From Microbacteriaceae bacterium VKM Ac-2855 (GTDB lineage: Bacteria > Actinomycetota > Actinomycetes > Actinomycetales > Microbacteriaceae), in assembly GCA_013204985.1 (NCBI GenBank), contig JABMLG010000007.1, positions 1-64,000 of the forward strand: a stretch of 64,000 nt of DNA. The letters run 5' to 3'. A program made the translations under genes and the position numbers. Each line of letters begins with the position of its first letter. The stretch's first letter is position 1. Below are positions 11,561 to 30,421 of this stretch, piece by piece. A model generated the notes under the pieces. The model ran no database searches. It had not been told where the DNA came from and saw only the letters and a program-made list of their open reading frames with translations.

Positions 11561-11663
11561 TGCTCGCAGCATCTGCGGCAGCCATCCGTTCGCCGGATCG
11601 AATGCACCCCCTCTGGGGCGCTGCACCTCTTTGTCACGCCTGAAACTCAAAGGAGAGCCTTTT

Positions 11664-13085: not shown

Positions 13086-13130
13086 CTCGACCACCTCGAC
13101 AGCTAGAGCATCAACCGAACGGAAACCCAC

Positions 13131-13940
13131 ATGATCATCAACACGTTCTCCTACCTCTGGTCGAAGACGGCGACCGACGCGATCACCGAACTCGTCGACA
13201 ACGGCTACACCACCTTCGAGGTGCCGGTCAGTTCGCCGCACTGCTGGCCAGACGACATCTCCGCCTCCGAGCGCTCCGCATTCCGGGCGAAACTCGACGG
13301 CTACGGCGCCACGATCAGGTCGTTGAACGCCGGCGGATACGACGTCAACCTCGCCAGCCCGGCGGCGAAGATGCGTGAGAAGAGCATCGAACACATCAAC
13401 ACCGTGATCGAGCTCGCCGCAGACTGGAACGTCCGAGAGATCGTCATCTCTCCCGGCACGCGCCGCCCCATGATCTCGCCCACCCTGGAGCAGGTGAACG
13501 GCTGGTTGTCCGAGAGCCTGGACACGCTGATTCCGCTCGCGAAGAAAGCCGGTACGCGCCTCCTCTTCGAGCAGACCCCGTACTGCTTCGCCCCGACGAT
13601 CGGCGACCTCGCGACGATCGTCCGCACCGTCGACGACGAATCGCTCAAGATCGTGTACGACGTCGCCAACGCCGCCTACATCGGCGAGGACCCGGTCGCA
13701 GCCCTGCGCGACTACCACGAGCTCATCCCGCTGGTGCACATCTCCGATACCGGCACGGACACGTGGGGACACGACCCCATCGGTACCGGAGTGATCGATT
13801 GGCGCGGCCTCGGCGACGCGGTCGGAGAGACGCTCGGGGTCGATGACGTCGTTCTCGAGGTCATCCGCGACCAGAACACGTTGCACGAGTTCGCCACCGC
13901 CCTGGCTGAGCTCAAGACGCAGGGCTGGAATCTCGGCTGA
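13131..13940 (+). CDS. TIM-barrel sugar isomerase/epimerase
   Basis: Encodes 269 residues beginning MIINTFSYLW. Metal-site motifs of the AP endonuclease-2/xylose-isomerase-like fold are visible: LLFEQTPYC (Glu), IVYDVANAAYIG (Asp), LVHISDTG (His, Asp) and VVLEVIR (Glu). The gene starts 45 bases after the symporter and is followed by a hairpin and then an SDR gene. It probably isomerises the imported compound or an oxidised derivative. The sequence does not allow a choice between hydroxypyruvate isomerase, inosose dehydratase and keto-sugar epimerase activities. Confidence 0.8.
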   Translation: MIINTFSYLWSKTATDAITELVDNGYTTFEVPVSSPHCWPDDISASERSAFRAKLDGYGATIRSLNAGGYDVNLASPAAKMREKSIEHINTVIELAADWNVREIVISPGTRRPMISPTLEQVNGWLSESLDTLIPLAKKAGTRLLFEQTPYCFAPTIGDLATIVRTVDDESLKIVYDVANAAYIGEDPVAALRDYHELIPLVHISDTGTDTWGHDPIGTGVIDWRGLGDAVGETLGVDDVVLEVIRDQNTLHEFATALAELKTQGWNLG

Positions 13941-13943
13941 CAG

Positions 13944-13965
13944 GGGCGCACCAGCTGGTGCGCCC
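13944..13965 (+). terminator. 22-base perfect palindrome after the TIM-barrel gene
   Basis: Arms GGGCGCACCAG and CTGGTGCGCCC meet without a loop, three bases after the stop codon at 13940. In RNA the central bases would open into a small loop. No U tract follows, so it may be a partial terminator or a stabilising hairpin within the transcript that continues into the SDR gene. Confidence 0.5.
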
Positions 13966-14015
13966 GTCGCGGCCGGTAGCAGTCACAAGCGAGACCTTCA
14001 GAAGGAGACAGCGCA

Positions 14016-14807
14016 ATGAGAGTTCTAGTCAGTGGTGGAAGTAGCGGCATCGGCGCCGCGGCGAGCGTCAGGCTCGCCGAAGCCGCCATCGCCCGAGGCG
14101 AGGAGGCCATGGTCGCCGTGTGCGGGCAGACGTCGAACGAGCAGCAAGCCGAGGTCGTCCGCGCCATCCAGTCGCTCGGCGGGAAGGCCATCGCGTTGGT
14201 GGGGGATCTGGCCGATCCGGATGTTCCGGATCAGTTGGTGACCGCCGCGGTCGAGGAGTTCGGCGGCTTGGACGCGTTGGTGGCCAACCACGGAGTCGCG
14301 AGCCCCGGCGCGCTCAAGGACGTGTCCCTCGAAGCCTGGGACAGCATGTTCGCCGTCAACCTTCGCGGGGCGTGGCTCCTCGCCAAAGCGAGCTACCCGC
14401 ACCTGCTCGAGAGCCGCGGTGCCGCGTGCTTCACCTCCTCGATGTCCGGTCAGCTCCCGCACGCCGGGTCGGGTCCGTACAGTCCCACCAAGGCGGCGCT
14501 GACGATCATGGCGCAGACGCTCGCGCTGGAATGGGCGCCCGACGGCATCTGCGTGAACGTGGTCTCGCCCGGCATGACCCGGACCGGAATGACCGAGAAG
14601 ATGTATCTCGACCCCGACATCAAGAAGGCGCGCGAGGCGATCATCCCGCTGGCACGGATCGGGGAGCCGATCGACATCGCTAACGTCATCGAGTTCCTCG
14701 TCAGCCCGCTCGCCGGCTACGTCACCGGGCAGGACATCTGCGTCGACGGCGGTTTCTCGAAGTCGATCCTGAGTCACATCCCGGGACGGCCGAGCTCGAA
14801 GCCCTGA
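14016..14807 (+). CDS. SDR-family oxidoreductase
   Basis: Encodes 263 residues with a strong AGAAGGAG ribosome binding site. Motifs: VSGGSSGIGAAA for NAD(P) binding, VANHGVAS, catalytic Ser in FTSSMSG, the YSPTK pair and SPGMTRTGM. Classical SDR of the 3-oxoacyl/sugar dehydrogenase type; DGGFSKS near the C-terminus is typical. As the last gene of the IclR-symporter-isomerase run it probably oxidises or reduces the sugar acid handled there. It ends in a convergent gap against the hut operon. Confidence 0.86.
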   Translation: MRVLVSGGSSGIGAAASVRLAEAAIARGEEAMVAVCGQTSNEQQAEVVRAIQSLGGKAIALVGDLADPDVPDQLVTAAVEEFGGLDALVANHGVASPGALKDVSLEAWDSMFAVNLRGAWLLAKASYPHLLESRGAACFTSSMSGQLPHAGSGPYSPTKAALTIMAQTLALEWAPDGICVNVVSPGMTRTGMTEKMYLDPDIKKAREAIIPLARIGEPIDIANVIEFLVSPLAGYVTGQDICVDGGFSKSILSHIPGRPSSKP

Positions 14808-14913: not shown

Positions 14914-16122
14914 TCAGGGGGCGCCATCACTGGGTGAATTCTGCGTCAGCGGCTTACCGCCCCGCCACACCCGCCGCACCAGGTGCACGCCGGGCCGATA
15001 GGCGAGGTGGGAGGGGTCGGGTGCGTCGAGTTCGACGAGGTCCGCTCGTGCACCGATGCGCACCGAACCGACGTCGTCGCGGCGGAGCGAGGTGGCGCCC
15101 CCGGCCGTCGCGGCCCAGAGAGCTTCGGCGGGCGTCATTCCCATCTCGCGTACAGCCAGTGCGATGCAGAACGGGATGGAGGAGGTGAAGGACGATCCTG
15201 GGTTGCAGTCGCTCGCGATGGCGACGCGCACGCCGGCGTCGATCAGTCTGCGGGCATCCGGATACGGCTGTCGGGTGGAGAACTCGACGCCGGGGAGGAG
15301 GGTCGCGACGGTGCGGGAGGCGGCGAGGGCGGTGATGTCGTCGTCGGTGAGGTAGGTGCAATGGTCGACGCTGGCGGCGTCGAGCTCGACGGCGAGACGA
15401 ACCCCCTCACCGGGTTCGAGCTGGCTCGCGTGGACCCGGATGCCGAGTCCGTGGTCGCGGCCCGCGATCAGGATGCGACGTGTCTCCTCGGGGGTGAACG
15501 CTCCGGTCTCGCAGAAGACGTCGATCCAGCGCGCATGCGGTGCGCACGCCTCGAGCATCCCGCCGACGACGAGGTCGACGTACTGGTCGCGTCGATCGGT
15601 GTACTCCAGCGGAACGACGTGGGCGCCGAGGTACGTCACTTCGTCGGTCAGCTGCGCGGCGAGGCGTACGAGGCGTTCCTCGGTCGCGAGGTCGAGCCCG
15701 TAACCGCTCTTGATCTCGAGGGTGGTCGTGCCCTGGGATCTCGCCTGGGCGAGAAGATGCCGGGCGTTGGCGACGAGTGTTTCGTCGGAGGCCGCCCGGG
15801 TCGCTGCGACGGTCGACCGGATACCGCCGGCGGAGTAGCGCTGCCCAGCCATTCGCGCTTCGAATTCGGCAGCCCTGTCGCCGGCGAAGAGGATGTGGCT
15901 GTGCGAGTCGACGAAACCGGGAATCAGTGCTCGCCCACCGAGCCCAGTGACGTCGTCGGACGCTGGGGCGTCGGCAGCGGCGCCGACCCAGGCGATCAGG
16001 CCCTCCTCGATGATGACGGCCGCGTCGTCGACGATGCCGAGTTCACCGATGACGGGGTCGCTGCCATCCCGCGGCAGGTTCGTAACGAGTCGGCCGATGT
16101 CGGTGAGGAGGAGGGACGTCAT
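14914..16122 (-). CDS. hutI: Imidazolonepropionase
   Basis: Encodes 402 residues. Amidohydrolase-fold metal sites are [13 protein letters not shown] near residue 72, [23 protein letters not shown] and the Asp of [19 protein letters not shown] is a HutI hallmark. It opens the imidazolone ring of 4-imidazolone-5-propionate to N-formimidoyl-glutamate in the cytoplasm. The start overlaps the stop of hutF by four bases. It is the promoter-distal gene of a minus-strand operon. Presence of hutU, hutI and hutF means urocanate from the substrate is fed fully to glutamate. Confidence 0.95.
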
Positions 16123-17486
16123 GAGGGAGATCCTTCGCTGATCGGGTGATGGGGCAGGGTCGAGGGATGCACAGCGGCGGCGGATCGCGCCGCGTCGATC
16201 GCGTCGAGCGCTGCGGCGAGGCGCCTCTCGCTCCCATCGGGATCGATGACCTGCCCGCCGACGATGGTTGTCAGTACGTCGGCTGCCGTCGCCACGAGCG
16301 GGTACGCCTCAAGGGGCGCGCCAATGGTCCGGATCGAGCGCGGATCGAGTTCGACCAGATCGCACACGGCTCCGACACGTATCCCGCCGCGCCAACCGAG
16401 CGAGTGGTAGCCGTCGACGGTGCCGGCACGCCACAACTCGGGGAGCGAGAAGACTCCGCGTCGGCGGCGGTTCAGCCGTTCTCCGGCTTCGAGCCCGCGC
16501 AACTCGAGCAGTGGGTCGATGACGGCGTTCTGGTCGGAACCGATGGCCAATGAGGCGCCTCGATCGACGAGATGGCGCGCCGGTCCGATCCCATCGCCGA
16601 GGTCGGCTTCGGTGCTCGGGCACATCACGACGGCGACACCCGCCTCACCGAGCAGATCACGGTCAGCTTCGGTCAGGTGAGTGGCGTGGACCACGGAGAG
16701 GCGACCCGAGAGAGCGCCGGCACGGGCGAGCAGACCCGTGGGTGTGAGCCCGGTTGCTGCGAGGCATTCTTCGTTCTCGCGCGGCTGCTCGGACAGGTGG
16801 ATGTGCAGCGGCACGTCGGCGGGGAGTTCCGCGGCGACGGCCGCGATCTCGGCTTCGGGTACGGCACGCACCGAATGGATCGCGGCACCCAGGATGACGT
16901 CGGGTCGACTCTCGAACTCCGAGTTCAGCAGGCGCCAACGGTCGAACCAGCCCGCCGCGCTGCGGTCTCCGAAGCGTCGCTGTTGTGGTTCGAGATCCCG
17001 CCCCAACCCGGCTCCGAGGTAGAGGGTGTCGAGGAGGGTGAGCCGGATGCCGGCGTCTGCAGCGGCGTCCGTCACGGCTCTCTCCATGGCGTGATCGGGC
17101 TCACGGTAGGGTTCGCCTCCCGGCCGGTGGTGGACGTAGTGGAATTCTCCGACTGCGGTGTAACCGGCGGCGGTCATCTCGCCGAACGCGGCGCGGGCGA
17201 GATCGCGATAGAGCGTTGGATCCAGCACCCCGGCGACGTCGTACATCTCGTCGCGCCAGCGCCAGAAGTCGCCGCCGTCAGCGTGGGTACGGCCCCGCAG
17301 TGCTCGGTGGAAGAGGTGTGAGTGGGCGTTCGCGAGGCCCGGAACGACCGTCCCGAGCAGACGGTCGGCCGGATTCGCCTCGACCCCGACCTCGACAGCG
17401 GTGATGTTCCCGGATTCGGACACGACACGGACTCGCTCGCGCACGACACCGTCGATGACGGCGCGCGCGCACCAGAAGCCGATCAC
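16119..17486 (-). CDS. hutF: Formimidoylglutamate deiminase
   Basis: Encodes 455 residues with a GTG start at 17486 that overlaps the preceding stop as GTGA. The metal site [14 protein letters not shown] near residue 56, [12 protein letters not shown], the HLSEQ motif and HATHL, with IGSDQN near residue 325, fit HutF of the amidohydrolase superfamily. It removes ammonia from N-formimidoyl-glutamate to give N-formyl-glutamate, so the locus uses the deiminase branch of histidine breakdown, which needs a further deformylase. The neighbour at 17483 is the candidate for that step. Confidence 0.92.
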
Positions 17487-18688
17487 AGCATCTCCCGCAG
17501 CACGCCGACGAGCGCCTGGGCGCCTCGTCGGCAGTCGTCGTCCTCGGCGTGCTCCTCGGGGGAGTGCGAGACTCCCGTGGGGTTACGCACGAACAGCATC
17601 GCGGTCGGCACCGACGCGGCCAGGATCCCTGCATCGTGACCGGCGCCGCTGGCCAGCACTGGAACGCGTCCTTCCAGTGCACCGAGGACGCGGTCGCGGA
17701 GGGCGAGGTCGAAGGACACCTCGGAGCCATAGGACTCCTCGACCACCTCCAGAACGCAACCCTCGTCCTCAGCCGCGAGGTGCGCGCGCGTGATGATGTC
17801 CTCGACCGCCGCGCGTGCTTGTGCGTCGGCGCCAGCGCGCACGTCGACCCACGCGTCCACGCGTGAAGCGATCACGTTCGTCCCGCCGGGTACCGGCACG
17901 AGACGGCCGACGGTCGCCCGGGTCGATGGTCGCGCGGCCGCCACCTCGCGGGAGGCGAGCACCGAGCGTGCCGCGGCGACCATGGGGTCCCGCCGGTCTT
18001 CGATCGCCGTTGTTCCGGCGTGGTTGCCCTCGCCGGTGAAGGAGAGTCGCCAGCGGCCGTGGGCGAGGATGCTGGACGCGACGGCGATCGGAGCATCGAG
18101 ATCGATCAGGCCGCGGCCCTGCTCGACATGCAACTCGACGAAGACCCCCAGCCGCGCGAGAGACTCCCGGTCGACCCCGAAATCCGGGAAGCCGGCGGCT
18201 GTGGCCGCCTCGGCGAATGTCACCCCATCGGAGTCGCGGAGCGCCGCGGCGCGCTCGGCGGTGATGGCGCCGGAGAGGAGGCGGCTGCCGAGACAGGCGA
18301 TCCCGAACCGTGACCCCTCCTCCTCCGCGAACACAACGACGGCGAACGGTCGGGAGGGCGTGAACCCGCTCGCGCGCAGCTCCTCCACCGCGACGAGAGC
18401 GGAGGCGACGCCGAGCGGACCGTCGAACGCCCCGCCTCCCGGCACGGAGTCGAGGTGGCTGCCGGTCACCACCGCGTCGTTGCCCGGCTGCCCCCACCAA
18501 GCCCAGAGATTGCCGTTGCGGTCGGTCTCGACGCCGAGGCCGAGACCTTCCGCGCGCTCGATGAACCACTCGCGCAGTTCTCGCTCGGCCGGGTCGAACA
18601 CGTGGCGGGAGTAGCCGCCTCGCGCTCGGTCCCGCCCGACGCCGTCGATCTCGGCCAGCAGCGTCGGCACACCTCCGGTCGCGCTCAC
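17483..18688 (-). CDS. M20-family amidohydrolase (allantoate amidohydrolase-like), candidate N-formylglutamate deformylase
   Basis: Encodes 401 residues from the GTG at 18688, which overlaps the hutU stop as GTGA. Zinc and catalytic motifs of the M20 allantoate/N-carbamoyl-amino-acid amidohydrolase group: [41 protein letters not shown] and the C-terminal GAGHDAG. In the deiminase branch N-formyl-glutamate is normally cleaved by HutG, an unrelated enzyme, and none is seen here. Its position inside the coupled hutU-hutF-hutI operon suggests this M20 protein removes the formyl group instead. That activity is inferred. Confidence 0.85.
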
Positions 18689-20352
18689 GCCCCCTCGGCC
18701 CCTTCCCACATCGGCACCCGCAGGCCGCGGTCGCGAGCGACCTCGGCGGCGCGCTCGTAGCCCGCATCGACGTGCCGCATCACTCCGGTTCCGGGGTCGT
18801 TGGTGAGCACGCGTTCGATCTTCTGCGCGGCGAGGTCGGTGCCGTCGGCGACGATCACCTGTCCGGCGTGCAGCGAGCGGCCGATACCCACTCCTCCGCC
18901 GTGGTGCAGCGACACCCAGGTGGCGCCGGACGCGGTGTTCAGCAGGGCGTTCAGCAGCGGCCAGTCGGCGATCGCATCGGAGCCGTCGGCCATGGCCTCG
19001 GTCTCGCGGTAGGGAGACGCGACCGATCCGGAGTCGAGATGGTCGCGGCCGATCACGACCGGTGCCGACAGCTCGCCACTCGCGACCATCTCGTTGAAGC
19101 GGAGACCGGCGAGGTGGCGTTCCTTGTAGCCGAGCCAGCAGATGCGGGCGGGCAGGCCCTCGAAGGCGATCTTCTCGCCGGCGGAGGTGATCCAGCGGCG
19201 CAGCTTCTCGTCGTCCGGGAACAGCTCGAGGATCGCACGGTCGGTGGCCGCGATGTCGGCGGGGTCGCCCGACAGCGCCGCCCAGCGGAACGGTCCCTTG
19301 CCCTCGGCGAAGAGGGGGCGGATGTAGGCGGGCACGAAGCCGGGGAAGTCGAAGGCGCGCTCGTAGCCACCGAGCTGCGCCTCGGCGCGGATCGAGTTGC
19401 CGTAGTCGAAGACCTCGGCGCCGGCGTCGAGGAAGCCGACCATCGCCTGGACTTGCTTGGCCATCGCGGCGCGGGAGCGGAGAGTGAAGTCCTCGGGGTC
19501 CGTCTCGGCGCTCTGGGCCCACTCGGCGACTCCGGTTCCCTCGGGGAGGTAGGAGAGCGGGTCGTGTGCCGAGGTCTGATCGGTGACGATGTCGACGGCC
19601 GTCCCGCGCTCGAGGATTTCGGTGAACACGGTCGCTGCGTTGCCGACGACGCCGACCGAGAGCGCGCGCCGCTCGGCCTTGGCCCGCAGGACCCGCTCGA
19701 GGGCGTCATCGAGATCGTGCGTCATCTCGTCGAGGTAGCCGTGATCGACCCGGCGCTGGAGGCGGGCGGGATCGACGTCGACGATCAGCACCACCCCCTC
19801 GTTCAGGGTTACTGCGAGCGGCTGAGCGCCGCCCATTCCGCCCGCGCCGCCGGTGAGGGTCAGAGTGCCGGCGAGGGTGCCGCCGAATCGCTTGTCGGCG
19901 ATGGCCGCGAACGTCTCGTAGGTGCCCTGGAGGATCCCCTGGGTGCCGATGTAGATCCACGAACCGGCGGTCATCTGGCCGTACATCGTGAGACCGAGCG
20001 CCTCGAGCCGGCGGAACTCGGGCCAGGTGGCCCAGTCTCCGACCAGGTTCGAGTTCGCGATCAGCACGCGCGGCGCCCACTCGTGGGTGCGGAACACACC
20101 AACCGGCTTGCCGGACTGCACGAGCAACGTCTCGTCGGATTCGAGGCCTTCGAGGGTGCGGATGATCGCGTCGTACGCCTCCCAGCTGCGGGCCGCTTTG
20201 CCGGTGCCGCCGTAGACGACGAGGTCGTCGGGCCGCTCGGCGACCTCGGGATCGAGGTTGTTCATCAGCATCCGAAGTACTGCTTCGGTCTGCCAGCTCT
20301 TGGCGGTGAGGGTCGTGCCGCGGGCTGCGCGGACGGGACGGGGGCCATGCAT
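18685..20352 (-). CDS. hutU: Urocanate hydratase
   Basis: Encodes 555 residues from ATG 20352 with AGAAGGA in good position; an in-frame ATG at 20430, also with a plausible binding site, would add 26 residues. Canonical motifs include [46 protein letters not shown], the NAD-binding [13 protein letters not shown] and [11 protein letters not shown]. The enzyme uses tightly bound NAD+ to hydrate urocanate to imidazolone propionate. The substrate-side motifs look like ordinary urocanase. I see no obvious sign of the thiourocanate hydratase branch, although fine distinctions need an alignment. Confidence 0.95.
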
Positions 20353-20459
20353 GATGGGTCCTTCTGGCGTGGTCGTGGAGTCGGAGAGTGCTGCGTCACT
20401 GTGGCGTGACGGGGAGGCGATGGTCATGGGGTCCTCTCGGAGAGATCCGGGGGTCTCGG

Positions 20460-21389
20460 TCAGAGCTGGGAGTCGACGATGAACGCCTTCGCGGCGCGCA
20501 TGGCCTCGACGGGCGACGGCACGGCGTCGAGTTCGAGCAGGCGCCACGGCGCGCCTGCAGTGGAGTCGTACAGGCGTGCCCAGGCGGGCCAGTCGACGAC
20601 TCCGGCGCCGAGGGCGCACATGTACTCCTGGTGCTGGTCGTGGATGATCGTGTGATCGATGGGGAAGCCTTCCGGCATGCGCCCGATCGCGTCCTTCCAG
20701 TGCGCGATGATGACGCGGTCCGCATGGCGCCGGACGACGTCGACGGCGTCCCCTCCCGCCAGCGTGATGTGCGCGGTATCCGGGCAGAAGAACACGTACT
20801 CGGGGTCGGTCGCCGTGAGGATCAGGTCGATGTCCCGTCGAGTGCAGAAGGTCGAGTGCGCTTCGGTGTGCAGCGCCGTTTTGACTCCGACGCGCAGCGT
20901 GGCGTCTCCGACGGCGTGGGCGAAGGTCGCGACGGTGTCAGCGAAGGCGAGATCCACGAAGAAAGGCGGCACGCTGTCTCGGCTGTTCCGCATGGGGAGA
21001 CCCGCGACGAGGATCCCTCCGCCGACGTCGGCGACGAACTGCGCCAATTCCTGCGCGCGGTCGACCTCGGCGGAGAGGTCCGACCCCGCCCGCCAGCCGG
21101 AGCCGGAGTGGTAGCTGCTGATGAGCGAGAGCCCCCGCGCGTCGAGTTCGCGGCGGAATCCTGCAGCAGACCCGAAAGCCTCGACGGCGGACGTGGCGTC
21201 GGCCGGCGGGAAGGTCATCTCGAACGCTGTGATCCCGGCTTCGGTCAGAGCGTCGAAGATCCGGGTCCAGATCGCCAGCGGGTCCCGGCGGCGGATGTCC
21301 ATGATGTCGTCGTAACCGGCGACGTTCCAGAAGGACGGGTGATAGAAGGTGATCAGGTCGACGCCGTAGGCGGGTGCGGGTGCGTGCAT
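20460..21389 (-). CDS. TIM-barrel sugar-isomerase-like protein inside the hut operon
   Basis: Encodes 309 residues starting [21 protein letters not shown]. The metal-binding pattern of the xylose isomerase-like barrel is present: [18 protein letters not shown] (His, Glu, His), [13 protein letters not shown] (Asp, His), IAHWKD (His, Asp) and LLELDAVPS (Glu). No such enzyme belongs to the known histidine pathway. It sits between the importer and hutU on the same strand, 107 bases before hutU and 70 after the binding protein. It may process a modified imidazole substrate or simply serve another imported compound. Confidence 0.75.
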
Positions 21390-21459
21390 GGTGTGAAGCT
21401 CCTAGGAGGGTCGGCTCGGGGACGCCGCCGGTGCGGCGTCCCCGGGTGTCACGGCCCGA

Positions 21460-22383
21460 TCAGTGGTCGATGTCGTGTTCGGTGAGGAACTCGTCGGCGA
21501 CGGTGGCGGTCTCTTGCTTATCGATCGTCACCTTCGACAGCGCCTCGGTCAGGTTCTCGGTCGTGAGCGCCTCGGAGACGGCGTTGATCGCCTCCTTGGC
21601 CTTGTCGGTCGCCTTGTCGGAGCGGATCAGCGGGGTGATGTTCTCCGCGAGGAAGAGGTGCTCCGGGTCGTCCAGGATCACGAGGCCCTGCCGCTCGATG
21701 TTCGCGTCGGTGGAGAACAGGTTGGCGACCTGGATCGTGCCGTCGAGCAGTGCGGCGAGGGTCAGGGGGCCGCCCGTGTCGAGCCCGCGGAACTCTTTGA
21801 AGTCGAGGTTGTACTTGTCTTTCAGACCCACGAGGCCGACGTAGGTCTCGTCCCATCCGGCGCCGGAACCGATCGCGAATTCACCGGCGACCGGCTCGAG
21901 GTCGGCGATCGAGGTCAGTCCGTACTTCTCTGCCGTCTCCGGGGTGACGACGAGGGTGTCCTTATCCTCCGCTTCCGACATCGGAAGCGTCTCGAGACCC
22001 TCGGGGAGCACCTTCTGCAGTTCGGCGTTGACGGCGTCGGCGGTGGTGACGCCCTCGGGCGCTCCTCCCTCGATGAGGGAGGAGTAGAGGGCGCCGTTGT
22101 ATTCGGGGAGCAGGTCGATCGAGCCGTCCTCGATCGCGGCGAGGTAGATGTCGCGTGCTCCGATGTTGAAGTTGCGGGTGACGGAGAAGCCTGCGCCCTC
22201 GAGGGCCTGCGAGTACATCTCGGCGAGGAGTTCGTTTTCGGGGAAGGCGGCGGAGCCGACGGCGATCGTGCCTTCATCGCTGGATCCGCCACCGCCGCTC
22301 GCCATCGGATCGTTGCTGCAGGCGGAGAGGGTGAGCGCAGCAGCGGCAGCGAGGCCGATGAGGGCGTAATGGCGACGGTTCAT
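21460..22383 (-). CDS. Quaternary-amine-type ABC substrate-binding lipoprotein (OpuBC/OsmF family)
   Basis: Encodes 307 residues. A lipoprotein signal ends in LSAC with Cys22. The mature part starts IAVGSAAFPENELLAEMYSQALEGAGFSV and contains DGSIDLLPEYNGALYSSL, the hallmark of the type F betaine/choline/ergothioneine-binding proteins. GAAAGG lies seven bases before ATG 22383. It delivers ligand to the two membrane proteins encoded next to it. Within a hut operon this points to import of an imidazole compound with a quaternary nitrogen such as histidine betaine; plain histidine is also carried by some betaine-type systems. Confidence 0.88.
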   Translation of the reverse strand: MNRRHYALIGLAAAAALTLSACSNDPMASGGGGSSDEGTIAVGSAAFPENELLAEMYSQALEGAGFSVTRNFNIGARDIYLAAIEDGSIDLLPEYNGALYSSLIEGGAPEGVTTADAVNAELQKVLPEGLETLPMSEAEDKDTLVVTPETAEKYGLTSIADLEPVAGEFAIGSGAGWDETYVGLVGLKDKYNLDFKEFRGLDTGGPLTLAALLDGTIQVANLFSTDANIERQGLVILDDPEHLFLAENITPLIRSDKATDKAKEAINAVSEALTTENLTEALSKVTIDKQETATVADEFLTEHDIDH

Positions 22384-22387
22384 GGCA

Positions 22388-23152
22388 TTACCTTTCGGGG
22401 AGGTCGGCTGCGATCGCGTCGCGGCCGAGGGGGGAGGAGGTGGAGCGGACAGGAACACGGGTTGTCCTGCGGCGGGAAAGTCGGGTGGAAGCGCTCGCGA
22501 CCCCGGGAGAGACGACGAGGCGCTCGATACCCGCAATAGCTAGATCGATGACGATCGCGAGCAGCGCGACGAGCACGCCTCCCGCGATGACGCGGTCGTA
22601 CTGGTTCAGGCTGAGGCCGGTGATGAGCGGTTGCCCGAGACCACCGAGTCCGACGTAGGCGGCGACGGTGGCGGTAGCGATCACTTGGAGGGTCGCCGAG
22701 CGGATTCCGGCGAAGATCAGTGGGAGGGAGTTGGGGATCTCGACCCGCCAGAGCACCTGCATGTCTCGCATGCCCATTCCGCGTGCGGCGTCCACGGTGT
22801 GGCGGTCGACAGCGCGGAGTCCGGCGAACGTCGATGTCAGGATCGGCGGGATGGCGAGGACGACCAGGGCGACCATCATCGGCGTGATACCGAGACCGAT
22901 GGTGACGACCAGCAGGCTGATCAGGCCGAACGTCGGGAGGGATCGCCCGGCGTTACCGATGGCGATCACGATGAAGGAGAACCGCCCGGTGTGCCCGATC
23001 CAGAGGCCCACGGGCAAGGCGATGAGCGCGGCGATCGCCACTGCCGAGAAGGTGTAGCCGAGGTGCACGCCGATCAGGGCGGGGAATGCGCCGCTGGGAC
23101 CGATCAGCCAGTTCGCGGGATCGAAGAGGTAGGGGATGTCCGAGCGGTTCAT
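22388..23152 (-). CDS. OpuC-type ABC permease
   Basis: Encodes 254 residues from ATG 23152, which overlaps the stop of the other permease by four bases. The core ABC membrane domain has about five to six segments and the cytoplasmic coupling motif DAARGMGMRDMQVLWRVEIPNSLPLIFAGIRSA, ending GLGGLGQPLITGL. Pfam-type BPD_transp_1 permease of osmoprotectant/betaine importers. The C-terminal thirty residues are Arg/Ser-rich and disordered. It pairs with the 23149 permease as a heterodimer. Confidence 0.87.
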   Translation of the reverse strand: MNRSDIPYLFDPANWLIGPSGAFPALIGVHLGYTFSAVAIAALIALPVGLWIGHTGRFSFIVIAIGNAGRSLPTFGLISLLVVTIGLGITPMMVALVVLAIPPILTSTFAGLRAVDRHTVDAARGMGMRDMQVLWRVEIPNSLPLIFAGIRSATLQVIATATVAAYVGLGGLGQPLITGLSLNQYDRVIAGGVLVALLAIVIDLAIAGIERLVVSPGVASASTRLSRRRTTRVPVRSTSSPLGRDAIAADLPER

Positions 23153-23799
23153 CGCGTACTCATCCCCAGACGCGTCCACGGCGTGAGAGCCCTCTGAGCG
23201 AGGACGATGGCCCCATCGCAGACGGCGGCGAGGGCGATCGAGAGAACGATGCCCACGATGATGGGTTCGATGTAGCTGAGCTGGAGCCCGCGGGTGAAGA
23301 GCGCACCGAGCCCGCCGACACCGATCAACGCGCCGACGCTGACGATACTGATGTTGGCGACCGTGGCGACCCGCAGACCCTGCAGCGTCACGGGAAGGGA
23401 CATCGGCAGCTCGACCGCGAAGAGACGGCGCAGGCGTCGGAACCCCATCGCCGATGCGGCTTCGAGAACGGTGGGGTCGACGGAACGAAGCCCATCGGCG
23501 ACGACGCGCACCATCAGCGCCGCGGTGTAGATCGCGAGAGCGACAACGATGTTGAGCGGGTCGAGGATCCGCGTGCCGATGATGCCAGGCAGGACGACGA
23601 AGAGGGCGAGTGAGGGGATCGCGTAGACGACACCGGTGACGGCTGTGAGCGGCTGATAGAGCCATCCATATCGGACGGCGAGGTAGCCGAGCGGGACGGC
23701 GATGACCACACCGATCACCAGCGGGAGGATCGCCAGGATGATGTGCTGTACGAGCGCATTGACGATCGTGGTGCTGCTGTTCGACAGGTACTCGATCAC
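23149..23799 (-). CDS. OpuC-type ABC permease
   Basis: Encodes 216 residues from GTG 23799 (VIEYLSNSSTT), overlapping the ATPase stop as GTGA; the longer ORF runs antisense through the ATPase and is not credible. The coupling motif is EAASAMGFRRLRRLFAVELPMSLPVTLQGLRVA, followed by GALIGVGGLGALFTRG. Size is standard for OpuBB/OpuBD-type proteins. It forms the translocation pore with the permease at 22388. Confidence 0.88.
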   Translation of the reverse strand: MIEYLSNSSTTIVNALVQHIILAILPLVIGVVIAVPLGYLAVRYGWLYQPLTAVTGVVYAIPSLALFVVLPGIIGTRILDPLNIVVALAIYTAALMVRVVADGLRSVDPTVLEAASAMGFRRLRRLFAVELPMSLPVTLQGLRVATVANISIVSVGALIGVGGLGALFTRGLQLSYIEPIIVGIVLSIALAAVCDGAIVLAQRALTPWTRLGMSTR

Positions 23800-24845
23800 G
23801 GAGTTACTGCCGTCCGGCTGAGGCGACGGGCGGTGAGCTGCGCGAACAGGCTTTCGTGGGTGATGATGCCGTCGGCGATCCCCTCGGTGTCGACGCGGAC
23901 GGCGATGCCGACCGGCGAGCTGATCACGGCATCGGTGACCCCGCGAAGGGAGTCCCGGTTCGTGAAGGTGGCCCCGATCGGCAGGTCGTTTCTGCCTTGA
24001 CTCGTCCATCGGAGGGGGCGCCCGGAGGCGTCGAGTTCGAGCCGTGCTTCCGGCCGTGTCGCCGATGTGATCGGATCCACCGTGAGTGCCGCTGCTGATT
24101 CGAAGGAGAGGCTGCGGAAACCGCGGTCCCGGCCGGCGAAGGTGGCGACGAAGTCGTTGACAGGGTTCTCGAGGATCTCCTGCGGCGGCGCGAACTGCTC
24201 GAGGTGTCCGCCCGTCTGGAAGATGGCGATGTGATCACCGAGCTTGATCGCCTCGTCGATGTCGTGCGTGACGAGGACGATGGTCTTCCCGATGTCGCGC
24301 TGCAGACGAAGGAACTCATCCTGCAACTCGGCGCGGACCACCGGGTCCACCGCGCTGAACGGCTCGTCCATCAGCAGGACCGGCGGGTCGGCCGCGAGCG
24401 CGCGGGCCACTCCCACTCTCTGCTGCTGTCCACCCGAGAGCTGCACGGGGTAGCGCTTCGCCAGGGACTGAGGTAGTCCGACTCGCTCCATGAGCTCCCC
24501 GGCCGAGGCGAGGGCCTTGCGCTTGCCCACCCCCATGAGCCGGGGGACCGTCACGATGTTCTCGGCGATCGTCAGATGCGGGAACAGGCCTGCCTGCTGG
24601 ATGACGTACCCGATGGAACGACGCATCACGGCAACGTCTCGCGACCGAACATCCTCTCCGTCGAGCCTGATCGACCCGCTCGTGGACTCGATCATGCGGT
24701 TGATCATCCGCAACGACGTCGTCTTACCGCAGCCGGAGGGGCCCACGAAGACGCTGATATGGCCGGTGGGCAGGGTAAGCGTGAGGTCATCGACGGCGAC
24801 TGTTCCGTCGGGGAAGACTTTGGATACTCCGTCGAACTCAATCAT
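23796..24845 (-). CDS. OpuC/ProV-type ABC transporter ATP-binding protein
   Basis: Encodes 349 residues. Walker A GPSGCGKTT near residue 35, signature LSGGQQQRVGVARAL, Walker B VLLMDEPFSAVD and the switch histidine in LVTHDIDEA. The remaining hundred residues form a CBS-like regulatory tail, as in betaine importers whose activity responds to ionic strength or nucleotides. First gene of the importer, with GAGGGG before ATG. The 155-base gap before it (24846-25000) must hold the operon promoter; no clear box was identified there. Confidence 0.9.
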   Translation of the reverse strand: MIEFDGVSKVFPDGTVAVDDLTLTLPTGHISVFVGPSGCGKTTSLRMINRMIESTSGSIRLDGEDVRSRDVAVMRRSIGYVIQQAGLFPHLTIAENIVTVPRLMGVGKRKALASAGELMERVGLPQSLAKRYPVQLSGGQQQRVGVARALAADPPVLLMDEPFSAVDPVVRAELQDEFLRLQRDIGKTIVLVTHDIDEAIKLGDHIAIFQTGGHLEQFAPPQEILENPVNDFVATFAGRDRGFRSLSFESAAALTVDPITSATRPEARLELDASGRPLRWTSQGRNDLPIGATFTNRDSLRGVTDAVISSPVGIAVRVDTEGIADGIITHESLFAQLTARRLSRTAVTP

Positions 24846-25000
24846 GGTCGCCCCTCGGTCGTGAGAAGTCGGAAGTGGTGCCGTGGTTCATGAGCGGTCC
24901 TCCTGGACGTCGGGAACAGATAGGTGTGAGCGCCTGCGGCTGTCGGCCTCACGGACAAGGCGGGCCCAGCGAGGGGAGCGAGTGATGAGAGAGTCGACTG

Positions 25001-25657
25001 TCATCGCGCGCCGCCAAGGCTCGCGGACAGCTGTCGGGTGGCTCGGACGAGTGCCATGCCGTGCCGCATTTCGTCGACCGCGTGCTCGCGGTAGCTCGGC
25101 ACGACGAGGCTCATGGCAGCAACGATGCGATTACCCGCACGAACTGGGGCTGCGATCGCGGTGATATCAGGCTCGATACCGCTCGCGACGACGACGAAGC
25201 CCTCATCCGGAGTCTTTCCGCACAGCACAGCACCGGCAGCCGAGTCTTCGAGCGAGATCGTTCGACCGACCCAACTCGCGTGCCGCACCGAATGAGTGCC
25301 CTCGACGATGCTGATGTAGACCGCGGTCGATTTATGACCCTCGATGCTGAGGTACACGGATTCTCCGGTCTCTTCGACGAGGTCCTGCATGATCGGATGC
25401 GCCTTCTCGATCAGTGCCTCGCTCGTCAGCGCCTGCGCGCCGAGCTGTACAAGACGACTACCCGGTCGGAAGACCCCGGCGTCGTCCCGGCGAACGAAGC
25501 CGCTGCCTTCGAGGGTTCGCAGGAGTCGGAGAGCGGTGCTGGCTGCGAGATCTGTGGCGCGGGCGCTCTCGGCGAGCGTGGCGCTGCCTCGATCGCAGAT
25601 CACGGCAAGCAGAGCGAGCGCGCGGTCGACCGCTCGGGTCGCTGTTTCCTCAGCCAT
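25001..25657 (-). CDS. IclR-family regulator of the hut/betaine locus
   Basis: Encodes 218 residues from ATG 25657, chosen for the AAGGAGG four to five bases upstream. The winged helix (ATLAESARATDLAASTALRLLRTLEGSGFVRRDD) is followed by a somewhat shortened effector domain with DSAAGAVLCG and ITAIAAPVRAG. It stands between the importer-hut operon and the divergent lyase-hutD pair, so it is the obvious local regulator of both. A candidate operator with AGATT/AATCT dyads lies at 25726-25744. Confidence 0.85.
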   Translation of the reverse strand: MAEETATRAVDRALALLAVICDRGSATLAESARATDLAASTALRLLRTLEGSGFVRRDDAGVFRPGSRLVQLGAQALTSEALIEKAHPIMQDLVEETGESVYLSIEGHKSTAVYISIVEGTHSVRHASWVGRTISLEDSAAGAVLCGKTPDEGFVVVASGIEPDITAIAAPVRAGNRIVAAMSLVVPSYREHAVDEMRHGMALVRATRQLSASLGGAR

Positions 25658-25725
25658 AGAGCCTCCTTGAGCGTGCAACGGATGGTGGGCGATGTCCGGA
25701 TCCTGGGCTCCGGTCGAACGGGACC

Positions 25726-25744
25726 AGATTACGAATCTCAGATT
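25726..25744. promoter_or_regulatory. Interlaced dyad operator between IclR and lyase genes
   Basis: AGATTACGAATCT (25726-25738) is a 5-base dyad with a 3-base spacer, and its right half AATCT forms a second dyad with AGATT at 25740-25744. The element lies 69 bases upstream of the IclR gene and 104 upstream of the lyase start, as expected for an operator controlling both directions. Confidence 0.45.
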
Positions 25745-25847
25745 TCATCAAGCGGCACGATTATTTCCGCGCCGTAAAAGCTCATTGCCACTAGATGGAA
25801 TCGGTTCTCGAGCGCATCAGAATGAGTGGGAGGACGAAGGAGGAACC

Positions 25848-27293
25848 GTGATCGAGCTGGATGGGAATGCTGGAGTGCGCGACATCGCCGCGCTCTCCGA
25901 CCGTCGGGACACTGTGTCCCTCGCCCCGGGAGTGCTCCTGGGTATCGCTGATGCGGCACGTGCCGCCTCGGACATCGCGGAACACTCGCCCGTTTACGGA
26001 CGCTCGACCGGGGTGGGCGCCAACCGCACCACCGTGGTGTCGGCCGATGCCGACCACGCTCTTCGACTCCTCCGCAGCCATGCCGTCGATGCCGGCCCGA
26101 CTCTGCCCGAGCGCGCAGTTCGAGCGATGCTCGCAGTGCGTCTCAATCAACTCTGCATCCCCGGCTCCGGTATCGCGCCGGAGGTCCTCATCGGGCTCCT
26201 ACGTATGCTCCAGACCGATGCCCTACCGGAAGTGCGGATGTTCGGTTCGGTCGGAACAGGTGACATCGGCGCGCTCGCGGGCACGGCTCTCGCGCTGCTC
26301 GGTGAGCGGCCCGTTGCGCGCTCGTTGCCTCCGACGGCTCCGTGGGGCGCTGAGAGTGCGCTCGCCTTCGTGAGTAGCGCCGCGCTTTCGATCGGTCGAG
26401 CCTGCCTCATCGTCGACGAGCTCGAGCAGTTGGAGCGCGCAGCCCGCGTCATTTTCACTCTCAGTTCGGTCGCGCTCGGCGCCGATCCCGGCGCGGTCTC
26501 CGCACGGGCCGCGACTGCTTCGACGATTCGAGGAGCGTCAGAGGTCTCGGAGGCTGTTCGAGCTCTCCTGACAGGCGTGTCCGACCCGATTCTGCTCGCC
26601 GCGCGCGTTCAGGACCCCTACGGTCTTCGTGTCTTCCCTCAAACGCAGGGCGGCCTCGTCGACGCTCTCGGAGCATTCGTCGAACGAACCGGCGCGCTCG
26701 TGCGCGCCGGCCAGGAGAATCCGCTCTTCGACGTGGACGCACGACTGGTCATGCACCACGGGGCCTTCTTCCAATCGGGCCTTGCGCACGCAGCGGAAGC
26801 CGCATCGCTCGCCCTCGCCGGCGCGACTGCCACCACTCTGTCGCGGATCCGTCTCCTGAACGACCCCGAGTACACCGACCTGCGACCGTTCCTCGCGGCA
26901 GGAGCGGTCGGCTCCTCCGGCTTGATGATGGTCGAGTACGTCGCCGCCTCCGCGATCGCGGAGATCCGATCCGCCGCCCAACCCGCATCTCTGGGTACGG
27001 TTTCGCTCTCGCGCGGCACGGAAGACGACGCCCCATTCACTCCCCAATCGATCACGCAACTCGAACGCGCCCTCCCTGCCTACCGCGTCCTGCTCTCGTG
27101 CGAAGTCGTCGGTGCCGCGCGAGCGTTGCGGCAGCGCGAGCGACACCTCGGACACTCCGGCGCGCTCGGGCGGGCTGTGTCGATGGTGGCATCCTTGCCA
27201 GCCGCCGATGTCGACCGGGACCTGCGCGCAGACCTCGACTCGGCGGCGGCTCTGCTCGGCGATCTCGCCACTCTGATCCCCTCCGACGGATGA
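25848..27293 (+). CDS. MIO-less aromatic-amino-acid-lyase homologue, candidate trimethylhistidine (hercynine/ergothioneine-type) lyase
   Basis: Encodes 481 residues from GTG 25848, preceded by AGGAGG. The fold is that of histidine ammonia-lyase: VYGRSTGVG with Tyr50, QDPYGLRVFPQTQGG, QENPLFD, GSSGLMMVEY and a late TEDD. The loop that should read GSVGASGDL reads GSVGTGDI at 133-140, one residue shorter and without the internal serine, so the MIO electrophile cannot form. MIO-less relatives that eliminate trimethylamine from ergothioneine (ergothionases) are known. Next to a betaine-type importer, hutD and hutU/I/F, this suggests elimination of trimethylamine from histidine betaine to give urocanate. 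An inactive paralogue or another amine substrate remain alternatives. Confidence 0.7.
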   Translation: MIELDGNAGVRDIAALSDRRDTVSLAPGVLLGIADAARAASDIAEHSPVYGRSTGVGANRTTVVSADADHALRLLRSHAVDAGPTLPERAVRAMLAVRLNQLCIPGSGIAPEVLIGLLRMLQTDALPEVRMFGSVGTGDIGALAGTALALLGERPVARSLPPTAPWGAESALAFVSSAALSIGRACLIVDELEQLERAARVIFTLSSVALGADPGAVSARAATASTIRGASEVSEAVRALLTGVSDPILLAARVQDPYGLRVFPQTQGGLVDALGAFVERTGALVRAGQENPLFDVDARLVMHHGAFFQSGLAHAAEAASLALAGATATTLSRIRLLNDPEYTDLRPFLAAGAVGSSGLMMVEYVAASAIAEIRSAAQPASLGTVSLSRGTEDDAPFTPQSITQLERALPAYRVLLSCEVVGAARALRQRERHLGHSGALGRAVSMVASLPAADVDRDLRADLDSAAALLGDLATLIPSDG

Positions 27294-27826
27294 CGACCCG
27301 GTTCCTCCAGCTCGACGATCTACCCGTCGTGCGATGGGCGAATGGACTGGGGGTAACGCGCGCGGTCCTCGACGAGCCCGGCCTTCGCGTGAGCATCGCC
27401 ACCATCCACGAAGCCGCCGCCTTCTCGACCTTCGCAGGGCTCCAGCGACTCCTCGTCGTGATCGGGCCCGTCGAAATCGAACTGGACATCGACGGTCGAC
27501 CCTGCCGTCTTCATCACGGCGACGGCGCTGCATTCTCGGGCAGCGCTCGAGTTTCTGTCTCCGCAACGAGGGTTCCCACCACCGTGCTCAATGTCATCCA
27601 CGACGACCGCTGGGAGAGCGCGAATACGAGCAAGGACACTGACCGCGATGACGGCCTTTCGCTCCCTTTCCCGCTCCGAGTCGACGGCGGCGGTGATCAG
27701 TCGGTCATCGCTCTCTTCTCCCACGGCATCGCGGTACTCGAACCGATGTTGGCGAGTCCTGACGGCGATCGGCGTGCGCGCACGACTTCCGCGGAGTGGG
27801 TGCCCGCTCGCGCGCGCCGGATGTGA
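27290..27826 (+). CDS. hutD: HutD-family cupin
   Basis: Encodes 178 residues; ATG overlaps the lyase stop as ATGA. The family core WANGLGVTRAVL (usual form WKNGGGxTRE), VSIATIHEAAAFSTFAGLQRLLVVI and the double-stranded beta-helix strands with HHGDGAAFSG are present. In pseudomonads HutD accompanies hut genes and is thought to limit over-expression by sensing a pathway intermediate such as formylglutamate. Its coupling to the MIO-less lyase ties that enzyme to the hut pathway. The middle Gly of the GGG motif is Leu here. Confidence 0.78.
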   Translation: MTTRFLQLDDLPVVRWANGLGVTRAVLDEPGLRVSIATIHEAAAFSTFAGLQRLLVVIGPVEIELDIDGRPCRLHHGDGAAFSGSARVSVSATRVPTTVLNVIHDDRWESANTSKDTDRDDGLSLPFPLRVDGGGDQSVIALFSHGIAVLEPMLASPDGDRRARTTSAEWVPARARRM

Positions 27827-29429: not shown

Positions 29430-30421
29430 ACGGCTGATTCCCTTGTCTCCGCGCGGTCGGTGGTATGCAGGGTTGAGCTTCCTCGCCTCCGTGATCCCGA
29501 GAGTCCGCGCTGCACGCGCGGCCCACTGCGGGTCCGCGAGCATCGACCGCCCGGGGAGCACGGCATCCGCGTCGCCGTCGGAGATGATGCGTTCGGCCTA
29601 CGCGGCCTCGGTGATGATGCGTTCGGCCTACGCGGCCTCGGTGGTGATGCCGACCGCTGCCGTCGGCACCCCGCTCGCGCGGACGGTGCGCGATCCGGGC
29701 CCCTGGTATCCGGGCGCCGCGGCGTAGTCGATCCCCGGCATTAGCCCTCCCGAGGAGCAATCGATCAGGTCAACCCCTCGCTCGGCGAGGCGCGCGGAGA
29801 CGTCGGCGGAATCCGCGGCGGTGGAGCCACCGGGCGCCACGTCGTCGATGGAACGACGCACCAGGAGCGGCTTGGCCGCCGGCCAGTTCGCGCGCACCGC
29901 GTCGACCACCGCGATGAGCAGCCGCTTGCGCGCGGCGACAGAACCCGACCACGCGTCGTCGCGGAGACCGGTCAGAGGCGACAAGAAATCGTGCAGGAGG
30001 TAGCCGTGCGCGCCGTGGATCTCGTGGTGTCGAAACCCGCGTCGTCCGCGCGTCGCGCTGCCGATCCGAACGCGTCGATCACGGCCTCGACGGTCGTGGG
30101 CTTCGCAGCATTCGGAGCGTCGTAGCGGCCGAAGGCAACACCGGTCGCGCCGACGGTACGCCATCCGCCGGCGACGGTCGGTGCCGAGGATCCGGAGGCG
30201 GCGTCGCCGGGCAGGCCCCGGTACTTCGAGCCTGTGCGACCGGCGTGGGCGAGCTGAACCGCGATCGTCGAGCCCTCGCGGTGCACCAGCTCCGTCACCC
30301 GACGCCACGCGGCGACGTGCGTCCCGTCCCAGAGGCCCGCGTGACGAACGAGCTTGTGCCTCAGCCGCCGCTTCGCGCTCTCACCGCTTCGGAGGGACTG
30401 CGTCATCACTCTTCCGGTCAA
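29430..30421 (-). pseudogene. Old yellow enzyme (NADH:flavin oxidoreductase) pseudogene
   Basis: Pieces in different minus frames line up with one OYE-family protein. In order: GLWDGTHVAAWRRVTELVHREG and AVQLAHAGRTGSKY; after a frameshift near 30028, EIHGAHGYLLHDFLSPLTGLRDD; then ERGVDLIDCSSGG and GVPTAAVGITTEAA; and finally ERIISDGDADAVLPGRSMLADPQW. The first roughly 70 residues are absent, where the LacI gene now ends (30418). A TAC-type Tyr codon has become TAG in the TEAA-x-AERII segment, and this region is present twice. The gene is clearly dead. Intact relatives are FMN-dependent ene-reductases. Confidence 0.75.
29583..29642. repeat. Perfect 30-base tandem duplication
   Basis: Two identical 30-base units, 29583-29612 and 29613-29642, lie inside the OYE pseudogene. 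Each corresponds in frame to ten codons including the TAG nonsense codon, so the duplication arose after the stop mutation or at least carries it. Confidence 0.9.

Follow-up and report, generated by a model that had tools for sequence, protein, structure and literature searches.

Among the relatives of histidine ammonia-lyase (HAL, HutH), the ergothionases of Treponema denticola (PDB 6s7j/6s7q) and Burkholderia sp. HME13 are set apart by the lack of the 4-methylideneimidazole-5-one (MIO) cofactor. Without MIO, a lyase has to rely on a leaving group superior to ammonia. Importers of the betaine family of ATP-binding cassette (ABC) systems are in turn known from the breakdown of histidine, as HutXWV of Sinorhizobium meliloti serves histidine in a hut context. 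The available text of PMC13405746 describes ergothionase as freeing trimethylamine from a histidine betaine. The present work concerns a gene cluster of Microbacteriaceae bacterium VKM Ac-2855 in which a MIO-less HAL-family lyase, here named HALx, is found with hut genes and an importer of the betaine family. It is located in a stretch of 64,000 nucleotides (the window; contig JABMLG010000007.1, positions 1 to 64,000, here contig C24 of genome G000), the genome being of 4.7 Mb in 26 contigs and rated 100% complete.

It is quite probable that this cluster serves the catabolism of histidine betaine, also called hercynine or Nalpha-trimethylhistidine. In such a pathway, an importer of the OpuC/EgtU family would take up hercynine, HALx would eliminate trimethylamine from it by acid/base chemistry to leave urocanate, and HutU, HutI, HutF and then an M20 hydrolase replacing HutG would convert urocanate into glutamate, ammonia and formate. 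MIO would be dispensable in HALx because trimethylamine, unlike the ammonia of histidine, leaves without the MIO electrophile. Given that a better leaving group is needed, that the relatives of HALx expel trimethylamine and that the imidazole appears to be unmodified, the matching betaine would be hercynine. Urocanate as the product of HALx is well supported; the substrate, the leaving group, the ligand of the importer and the role of the M20 hydrolase are inferred. The sequence-only reading had proposed a histidine-betaine system of this kind; the MIO-less lyase, the ordinary HutU and the linkage of the importer have held, and a betaine-specific binding protein is not supported. No hercynine-degrading enzyme was noted in the titles or abstract openings among the literature matches listed, a coverage outside which most subscription journals lie.

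The MIO-less lyase and its relatives

HALx of the window (25848-27293, plus strand, GTG start) is a protein of 481 amino acids with a PF00221 score of 263 bits and is a predicted hercynine trimethylamine-lyase. Its loop reads GSVG-TGD, which is one residue shorter than the GS(L/V)G(A/C)SGD of the MIO enzymes and is without the Ala-Ser-Gly of MIO, just as had been read from the sequence alone. HALx homologues (E up to 1e-40) were found in 23 of the 396 genomes of an order sample, the window's genome included, and a scan of named genomes gave at least 491 stretches encoding a relative, the best 80 being retained. The named hosts include Rathayibacter, Mycolicibacterium, Promicromonospora, Plantibacter, Kocuria, Rothia, Arthrobacter, Paenarthrobacter, Leucobacter and Streptomyces. 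An alignment of 102 HALx rows was made from the window, 19 order-sample loci, L103, L104 and the 80 named loci; a Rhizobium row (L105) was excluded from the family counts since it grouped with ergothionases.

The loop has seven residues with Thr-(Gly/Ala/Ser)-Asp in 102/102 HALx rows, compared with eight residues and (Ala/Cys)-Ser-Gly-Asp in HutH. Using residue numbers which we take to be those of Pseudomonas putida HAL, the position of HutH Asn195 is Ser in all 102 rows and Gln277, Arg283, Phe329 and Glu414 are unchanged in all 102, while Tyr53 is retained by 100 rows and His83 by 101 (gaps in the others). Position 280 is occupied by Tyr (71 rows), Phe (30) or Leu (1), and a His pair takes the place of Ser-Gly just before Phe329 (102 and 101 of 102 rows, respectively). 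On the hutH equivalog TIGR01225 the window lyase scores 189.6 against a cut-off of 539, and the best NCBIfam matches of HALx are histidine ammonia-lyase models, well under their cut-offs. A dN/dS of 0.18 between the window lyase and its counterpart in Rathayibacter sp. VKM Ac-2754 (L110) indicates purifying selection. Judged by these alignments, HALx is an actinobacterial protein family and not a single mutant, and the window lyase does not look decayed.

A tree of 54 rows was built, with 12 MIO-triad HutH rows and, for the ergothionases, five rows made up of 6s7j of T. denticola plus four lyases of proteobacteria. The HALx rows form a single clade (support 100/100), which shares a branch with the ergothionases, L105 and a second lyase of the window's genome (P0001), apart from MIO HutH (97/90, and 94/89 minus the loop columns; the exact positions of the long rows P0001 and L105 themselves are unsure). 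This bears out the suggestion that the lyase groups with ergothionases and not with MIO HutH. The loop deletion and Asn195Ser are present in 5/5 ergothionase rows. In profile comparisons, HutH enzymes are the closest solved structures and 6s7j comes next, and 6s7j ranks second-best in a PDB sequence search with the window lyase alone; it is the tree and the shared deletion that place HALx with the ergothionases, as raw similarity does not decide.

HALx and ergothionase thus have in common the HAL fold by sequence, the loop deletion, Asn195Ser and the lack of MIO. They differ in that HALx is 25-27% identical to four ergothionase-clade lyases, that position 280 is Tyr/Phe in 101/102 HALx rows and Leu in 5/5 ergothionase rows, and that HALx, unlike ergothionase, has His-His before Phe329 and an ordinary HutU as partner. 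HALx would appear to work like ergothionase yet is not classed as one here, because a thiourocanate-type partner and the aligned ergothionase lysines were both looked for and neither was found.

A number of other lyase types were encountered. P0001 (G000:C12:271257-272507; L027:9231-10574), the second MIO-less lyase of the window's genome, has the loop GSIG-ASD (YGLNRHLGSGRD); its gene lies immediately downstream of one for a luciferase-like flavin monooxygenase (PF00296), and G407 has an 82%-identical copy. A third HAL-family type, with the loop GNGAAGE and no Ser for MIO, is encoded close to the HALx cluster of genus g21; lyases of this type are found at L043:4852-6273, L044:13592-15019, L045:14374-15807 and L046:4628-6070. 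A further type (L122:3660-5195, L133:2340-3644) falls beside HutH in the tree and has nothing aligned at the MIO columns. The lyase of L122 adjoins a class III CoA-transferase and has the YGLTTGVGDLYTVG motif in common with L191, which adjoins HutU in G409. On a plasmid of Paracoccus saliphilus (L109:943-9482), the gene of an ergothionase-clade lyase closes a complete hut cluster in which hutH and hutG are present as well; this may be a proteobacterial counterpart of the HALx-hut arrangement that arose independently. In Polaromonas (L106:7857-12428), the gene of an ergothionase-clade lyase precedes genes for an ornithine cyclodeaminase-family protein and for substrate-binding proteins, and the substrate of this lyase may not be an imidazole.

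The hut enzymes and the importer

HutU of the window (18685-20427, minus strand) is an ordinary urocanate hydratase, as the sequence-only reading had judged: it scores 901 bits on TIGR01228 (cut-off 375) and 652 on the thiourocanate hydratase model NF058530 (cut-off 930), and is below both thiourocanate-type cut-offs. Five cluster HutUs score 851-901 on the urocanase model and fall under both thiourocanate cut-offs, and fourteen cluster HutUs show zero fixed differences from six ordinary HutUs. The single thiourocanate hydratase compared (L108) differs from the HutUs at 63 of 234 invariant columns. With HutU of the ordinary type, HALx should yield urocanate itself, from an unmodified imidazole.

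HutI (imidazolonepropionase, 14914-16122; TIGR01224 376 bits, cut-off 298), HutF (formimidoylglutamate deiminase, 16119-17486; NF006681 542 bits, cut-off 362) and HutU each pass an NCBIfam equivalog cut-off, HutF failing the other hutF model (TIGR02022 396.5, cut-off 413). The M20 amidohydrolase (17483-18688) scores 589 bits on NF006770 (cut-off 372), a family named allantoate amidohydrolase, and a role as N-formylglutamate hydrolase in place of HutG is predicted for it; on the model of ErtE, an N-carbamylglutamate hydrolase, it scores 264.6, below the cut-off of 520. These genes are on the minus strand. HutD (27290-27826, plus strand; PF05962 65.9 bits) starts inside the stop codon of the lyase (ATGA), so that the translational coupling of the two was correctly seen from the sequence. 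With respect to the HutF branch of the hut pathway, HutU, HutI, HutF and HutD are all present, whereas the window's genome has no HutH-level protein and HutG would be replaced by the M20 amidohydrolase.

HutU is found in 23/23 HALx genomes of the order sample, against a background of 224/396, and in 24/25 named HALx genomes checked. HutH with the Cys-Ser-Gly (CSG) triad is present in 22 of the 23, and a HutH-level PF00221 protein, by score, in 22 of the 25. The window's genome, G410 (Rathayibacter sp. VKM Ac-2754, the same strain as G401) and G420 (Leucobacter) keep HutU, and their PF00221 proteins score no higher than 273 bits, compared with more than 500 for HutH. HALx is the sole PF00221 protein of G410 and G420, and the window's genome has P0001 besides. 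In the genus of 15 genomes, the same four have HutU and PF00221. G401 belongs to the same genus as the window's genome and has its HutU in a place identical to that in G410, so the window probably comes from a relative of Rathayibacter.

The importer is encoded on the minus strand by genes for a proV/OpuCA-like ATPase (23796-24845; PF00005 122 bits, TIGR01186 290 bits, below the cut-off of 326.6), permease 1 (23149-23799; PF00528 61.8 bits, its GTG start overlapping the ATPase stop), permease 2 (22388-23152; PF00528 81.9 bits) and a substrate-binding protein with an OpuAC domain (21460-22383; PF04069 157.5 bits), which are the full parts of an OpuC/EgtU-type system. The nearest solved relative of the binding protein by sequence is EgtUC (9egh, E 2e-21). 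The importer therefore resembles the EgtU/OpuC importers (subcluster F-III) in its OpuAC domain and in having EgtUC as best PDB sequence match, and differs from them in that permeases and binding protein are separate genes and in its cage residues, which are discussed below.

Neighbourhoods in the order sample were compared at 20 kb for 19 of the 22 non-window HALx loci (G078, G106 and G148 were left out) and for 20 HutH loci, one per HALx-bearing genome, though some genomes have two. Binding protein and ATPase occur within approximately 10 kb at 18/19 HALx loci and at 0/20 HutH loci. Neighbours of the named loci were counted at the 57 of 80 with over 8 kb on both sides, and there the importer is near HALx in 51, HutU in 39 and either in 54. 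The six loci lacking the importer are those of Kocuria and Rothia, one of Arthrobacter, two of Streptomyces and an unclassified one; the Kocuria and Rothia loci, along with L028, have a related sugar-type major facilitator superfamily (MFS) gene near HALx instead. Taken together, these counts tie the importer to the MIO-less lyase and not to histidine breakdown as such. HutXWV and the window importer are both betaine-family ABC importers in a hut context, but HutXWV serves histidine, whereas the window type accompanies the MIO-less lyase and is not associated with HutH loci elsewhere.

Possible sources of hercynine and the weighing of alternatives

A gene pair encoding a cysteine dioxygenase-like (CDO-like) dioxygenase and an amidohydrolase was identified near HALx in 13 loci of five lineages. 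In the order sample it is present at 10/19 HALx loci, all from two genera only, and at 0/20 HutH loci; two of the 80 named HALx loci have it. Over 160 residues, seven of the dioxygenase copies share 61-85% identity with PDB 8qfr, of the 8qfl-8qfr series deposited as cysteine dioxygenase. We take 8qfr to be the ergothioneine dioxygenase of Thermocatellispora, whose partner desulfinase presumably releases Nalpha-trimethylhistidine; such an ergothioneine dioxygenase and sulfinate desulfinase of actinobacteria were reportedly the subject of work by Nalivaiko, Vasseur and Seebeck in 2024. An NCBIfam search of the pairs from two loci gave no match. If its function is as presumed, the pair would supply hercynine to HALx. 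This pair, and the three HutU-bearing HALx genomes without a HutH-level protein, add to the case made by the sequence-only reading. We lean slightly towards an actinobacterial sulfur-stripping route, in which ergothioneine would be turned into hercynine by the dioxygenase and desulfinase, hercynine into urocanate and trimethylamine by HALx with its own importer, and urocanate would enter the hut pathway; some actinobacteria without HutH, such as that of the window, would use hut for histidine betaine alone.

EgtD, the enzyme of hercynine synthesis, does not track HALx, with matches in 10 of 27 genomes searched (G401 and G410 being one strain and G407 being without HALx). There was no EgtD match in the window's genome, G401/G410 or G420, and those genomes would thus depend on outside hercynine. 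In the available text of PMC4595634, histidine betaine of Microcoleus is depleted from biocrust soil water, for which other consumers are inferred.

Several observations weigh against hercynine as the substrate of the cluster. In a Rhodococcus (G425) HALx is truncated and HutU is missing, and HutU of the order sample neighbours HALx at 7/19 loci compared with HutH at 13/20. CSG-triad HutH is found near HALx in seven named loci (L115, L117, L118, L119, L123, L132 and L133; five of Mycobacterium type, Sediminivirga and Microbacterium), so importer and HutH are not kept apart everywhere. The CDO-amidohydrolase pair, its function being our assumption, is absent from the window, the rest of the window's genome not having been searched for it. 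No trimethylamine-oxidising gene was seen near HALx among the 25 commonest neighbour clusters, as judged from sequence starts. The lysines of T. denticola ergothionase that are presumably catalytic are missing from HALx: Lys63 and Lys65 of 6s7j_A correspond to Arg60 and Thr62, and Lys183 to Pro. In the available text of PMC4595634 no isolate, Arthrobacter included, used histidine betaine, though the genomes of those isolates are not known to carry HALx.

The binding protein also weighs on this side. Its importer had been taken for a betaine importer, and of this the association with HALx has stood while a betaine-specific pocket is not supported. With cage reference residues from the available text of PMC9732360, the window protein is aromatic at only two of four EgtUC cage positions, and in nearly all HALx binding proteins Tyr341 is replaced by Asp and Tyr443 by Glu, Gln or Ala. 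Asp at EgtUC positions 339 and 341 and Arg at 275 are seen in most rows of the alignment (L140, L148 and L168 being incomplete or poorly aligned). Paralogues not linked to HALx have these Asp/Arg features too, one of them being encoded on contig C26 of the window's genome; the features therefore mark a subfamily and prove no ligand. With the cage losses as well, the importer is no more than a candidate for quaternary-amine binding. The window protein has Gly and Thr where most have Glu375 and Arg379, and the Rathayibacter copy is also without both. Unlinked actinobacterial OpuC-type binding proteins, with Asp/Asn at 341 and Arg at 275 in the rows aligned, were recorded at L226:6176-7105 (G000:C26), L207-L212 and L221; the genomic contexts of such paralogues gave no clue to their ligand.

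The Asp, Asp, Arg pocket would suit an ammonium still bearing hydrogens, and HALx might accordingly act on some other histidine derivative with an intact imidazole (Nalpha,Nalpha-dimethylhistidine, an N-substituted form or an opine-like conjugate), in which case urocanate would form together with another amine. We consider this unlikely, as the gene pair that we take to make trimethylhistidine sits near HALx in five lineages. Hercynine is, moreover, already a known natural product of cyanobacteria in the available texts of PMC4595634 and PMC3826126. Amadori compounds (fructosyl-histidine) and imidazole-lactate would be substrates of the same group and are given low weight. The three HutU-bearing HALx genomes without a HutH-level protein, the existence of betaine-family importers that carry histidine and the seven named loci with HutH near HALx would fit a MIO-independent histidine ammonia-lyase that replaces HutH and has a histidine importer. 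MIO is, however, considered essential for histidine, nearly all HALx genomes have a HutH or HutH-level protein of their own (the 22/23 and 22/25 given above) and the importer is absent near HutH at 20/20 loci away from HALx, which makes a histidine lyase very improbable.

The tree grouping and the rank of 6s7j in the PDB sequence search are what might be expected of a strict ergothionase, with the cluster degrading ergothioneine via thiourocanate. Such a cluster would sit poorly with an ordinary HutU and an M20 hydrolase below the ErtE cut-off, and the chance of it appears slim indeed. A Burkholderia ergothionase-clade lyase does adjoin a true thiourocanate hydratase (NF058530 1050, cut-off 930). 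The loss of the cofactor triad would also be seen in a catalytically dead or regulatory protein, but with the substrate residues fixed, a dN/dS of 0.18 and HALx as the sole PF00221 protein of the HutU-keeping G410 and G420, this hardly deserves credence. Hercynine remains the substrate that we favour.

Arrangement of the cluster and significance

The nine genes from the importer ATPase to hutI form a minus-strand run divergent from the lyase, in which importer, TIM-barrel gene, hutU, M20 gene, hutF and hutI lie where the sequence-only reading had placed them. There are 4-base overlaps at 5/8 junctions, joining ATPase-permease-permease and HutU-M20-HutF-HutI, with the genes of the binding protein and of an IolE-like TIM-barrel protein (20460-21389, minus strand; PF01261 56.3 bits) in between. 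A gene for an IclR-family regulator (25001-25678, minus strand; PF01614, PF09339) is placed between the minus run and the lyase, and an IclR gene is found in 33/80 named HALx loci. A search for an operator common to the upstream regions of HALx and the importer found none. Rathayibacter sp. VKM Ac-2754 (L110) has all twelve genes on identical strands, with a lyase 72% identical to that of the window; this recurrence and the fixed loop deletion (102/102 rows) indicate that the cluster is not a product of chance. The TIM-barrel protein was considered as a core member and set aside, since blastp found its gene in only 1/80 named loci (Rathayibacter), and it is probably accessory to the cluster.

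Beside hutI, window positions 11631-14807 encode an MFS transporter, a sugar-epimerase-like TIM barrel and a short-chain dehydrogenase, which are probably a separate sugar-type unit. At 29628-30421, minus-strand open reading frames in two frames resemble, by eye, frameshifted pieces of one old-yellow-enzyme-type gene.

If the cluster does degrade hercynine, a function would be given to a widespread actinobacterial family for which histidine ammonia-lyase models, far from reaching their cut-offs, are the best NCBIfam matches. HALx would be the missing enzyme of hercynine breakdown, the fate of the hercynine that arises from ergothioneine degradation would be explained, and a new biological source of trimethylamine would be added. 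The cluster would also name candidate consumers of the biocrust histidine betaine described in the available text of PMC4595634. For MIO-less lyases, hercynine would be a second substrate, and HALx would show the ammonia-lyase fold working without its cofactor.

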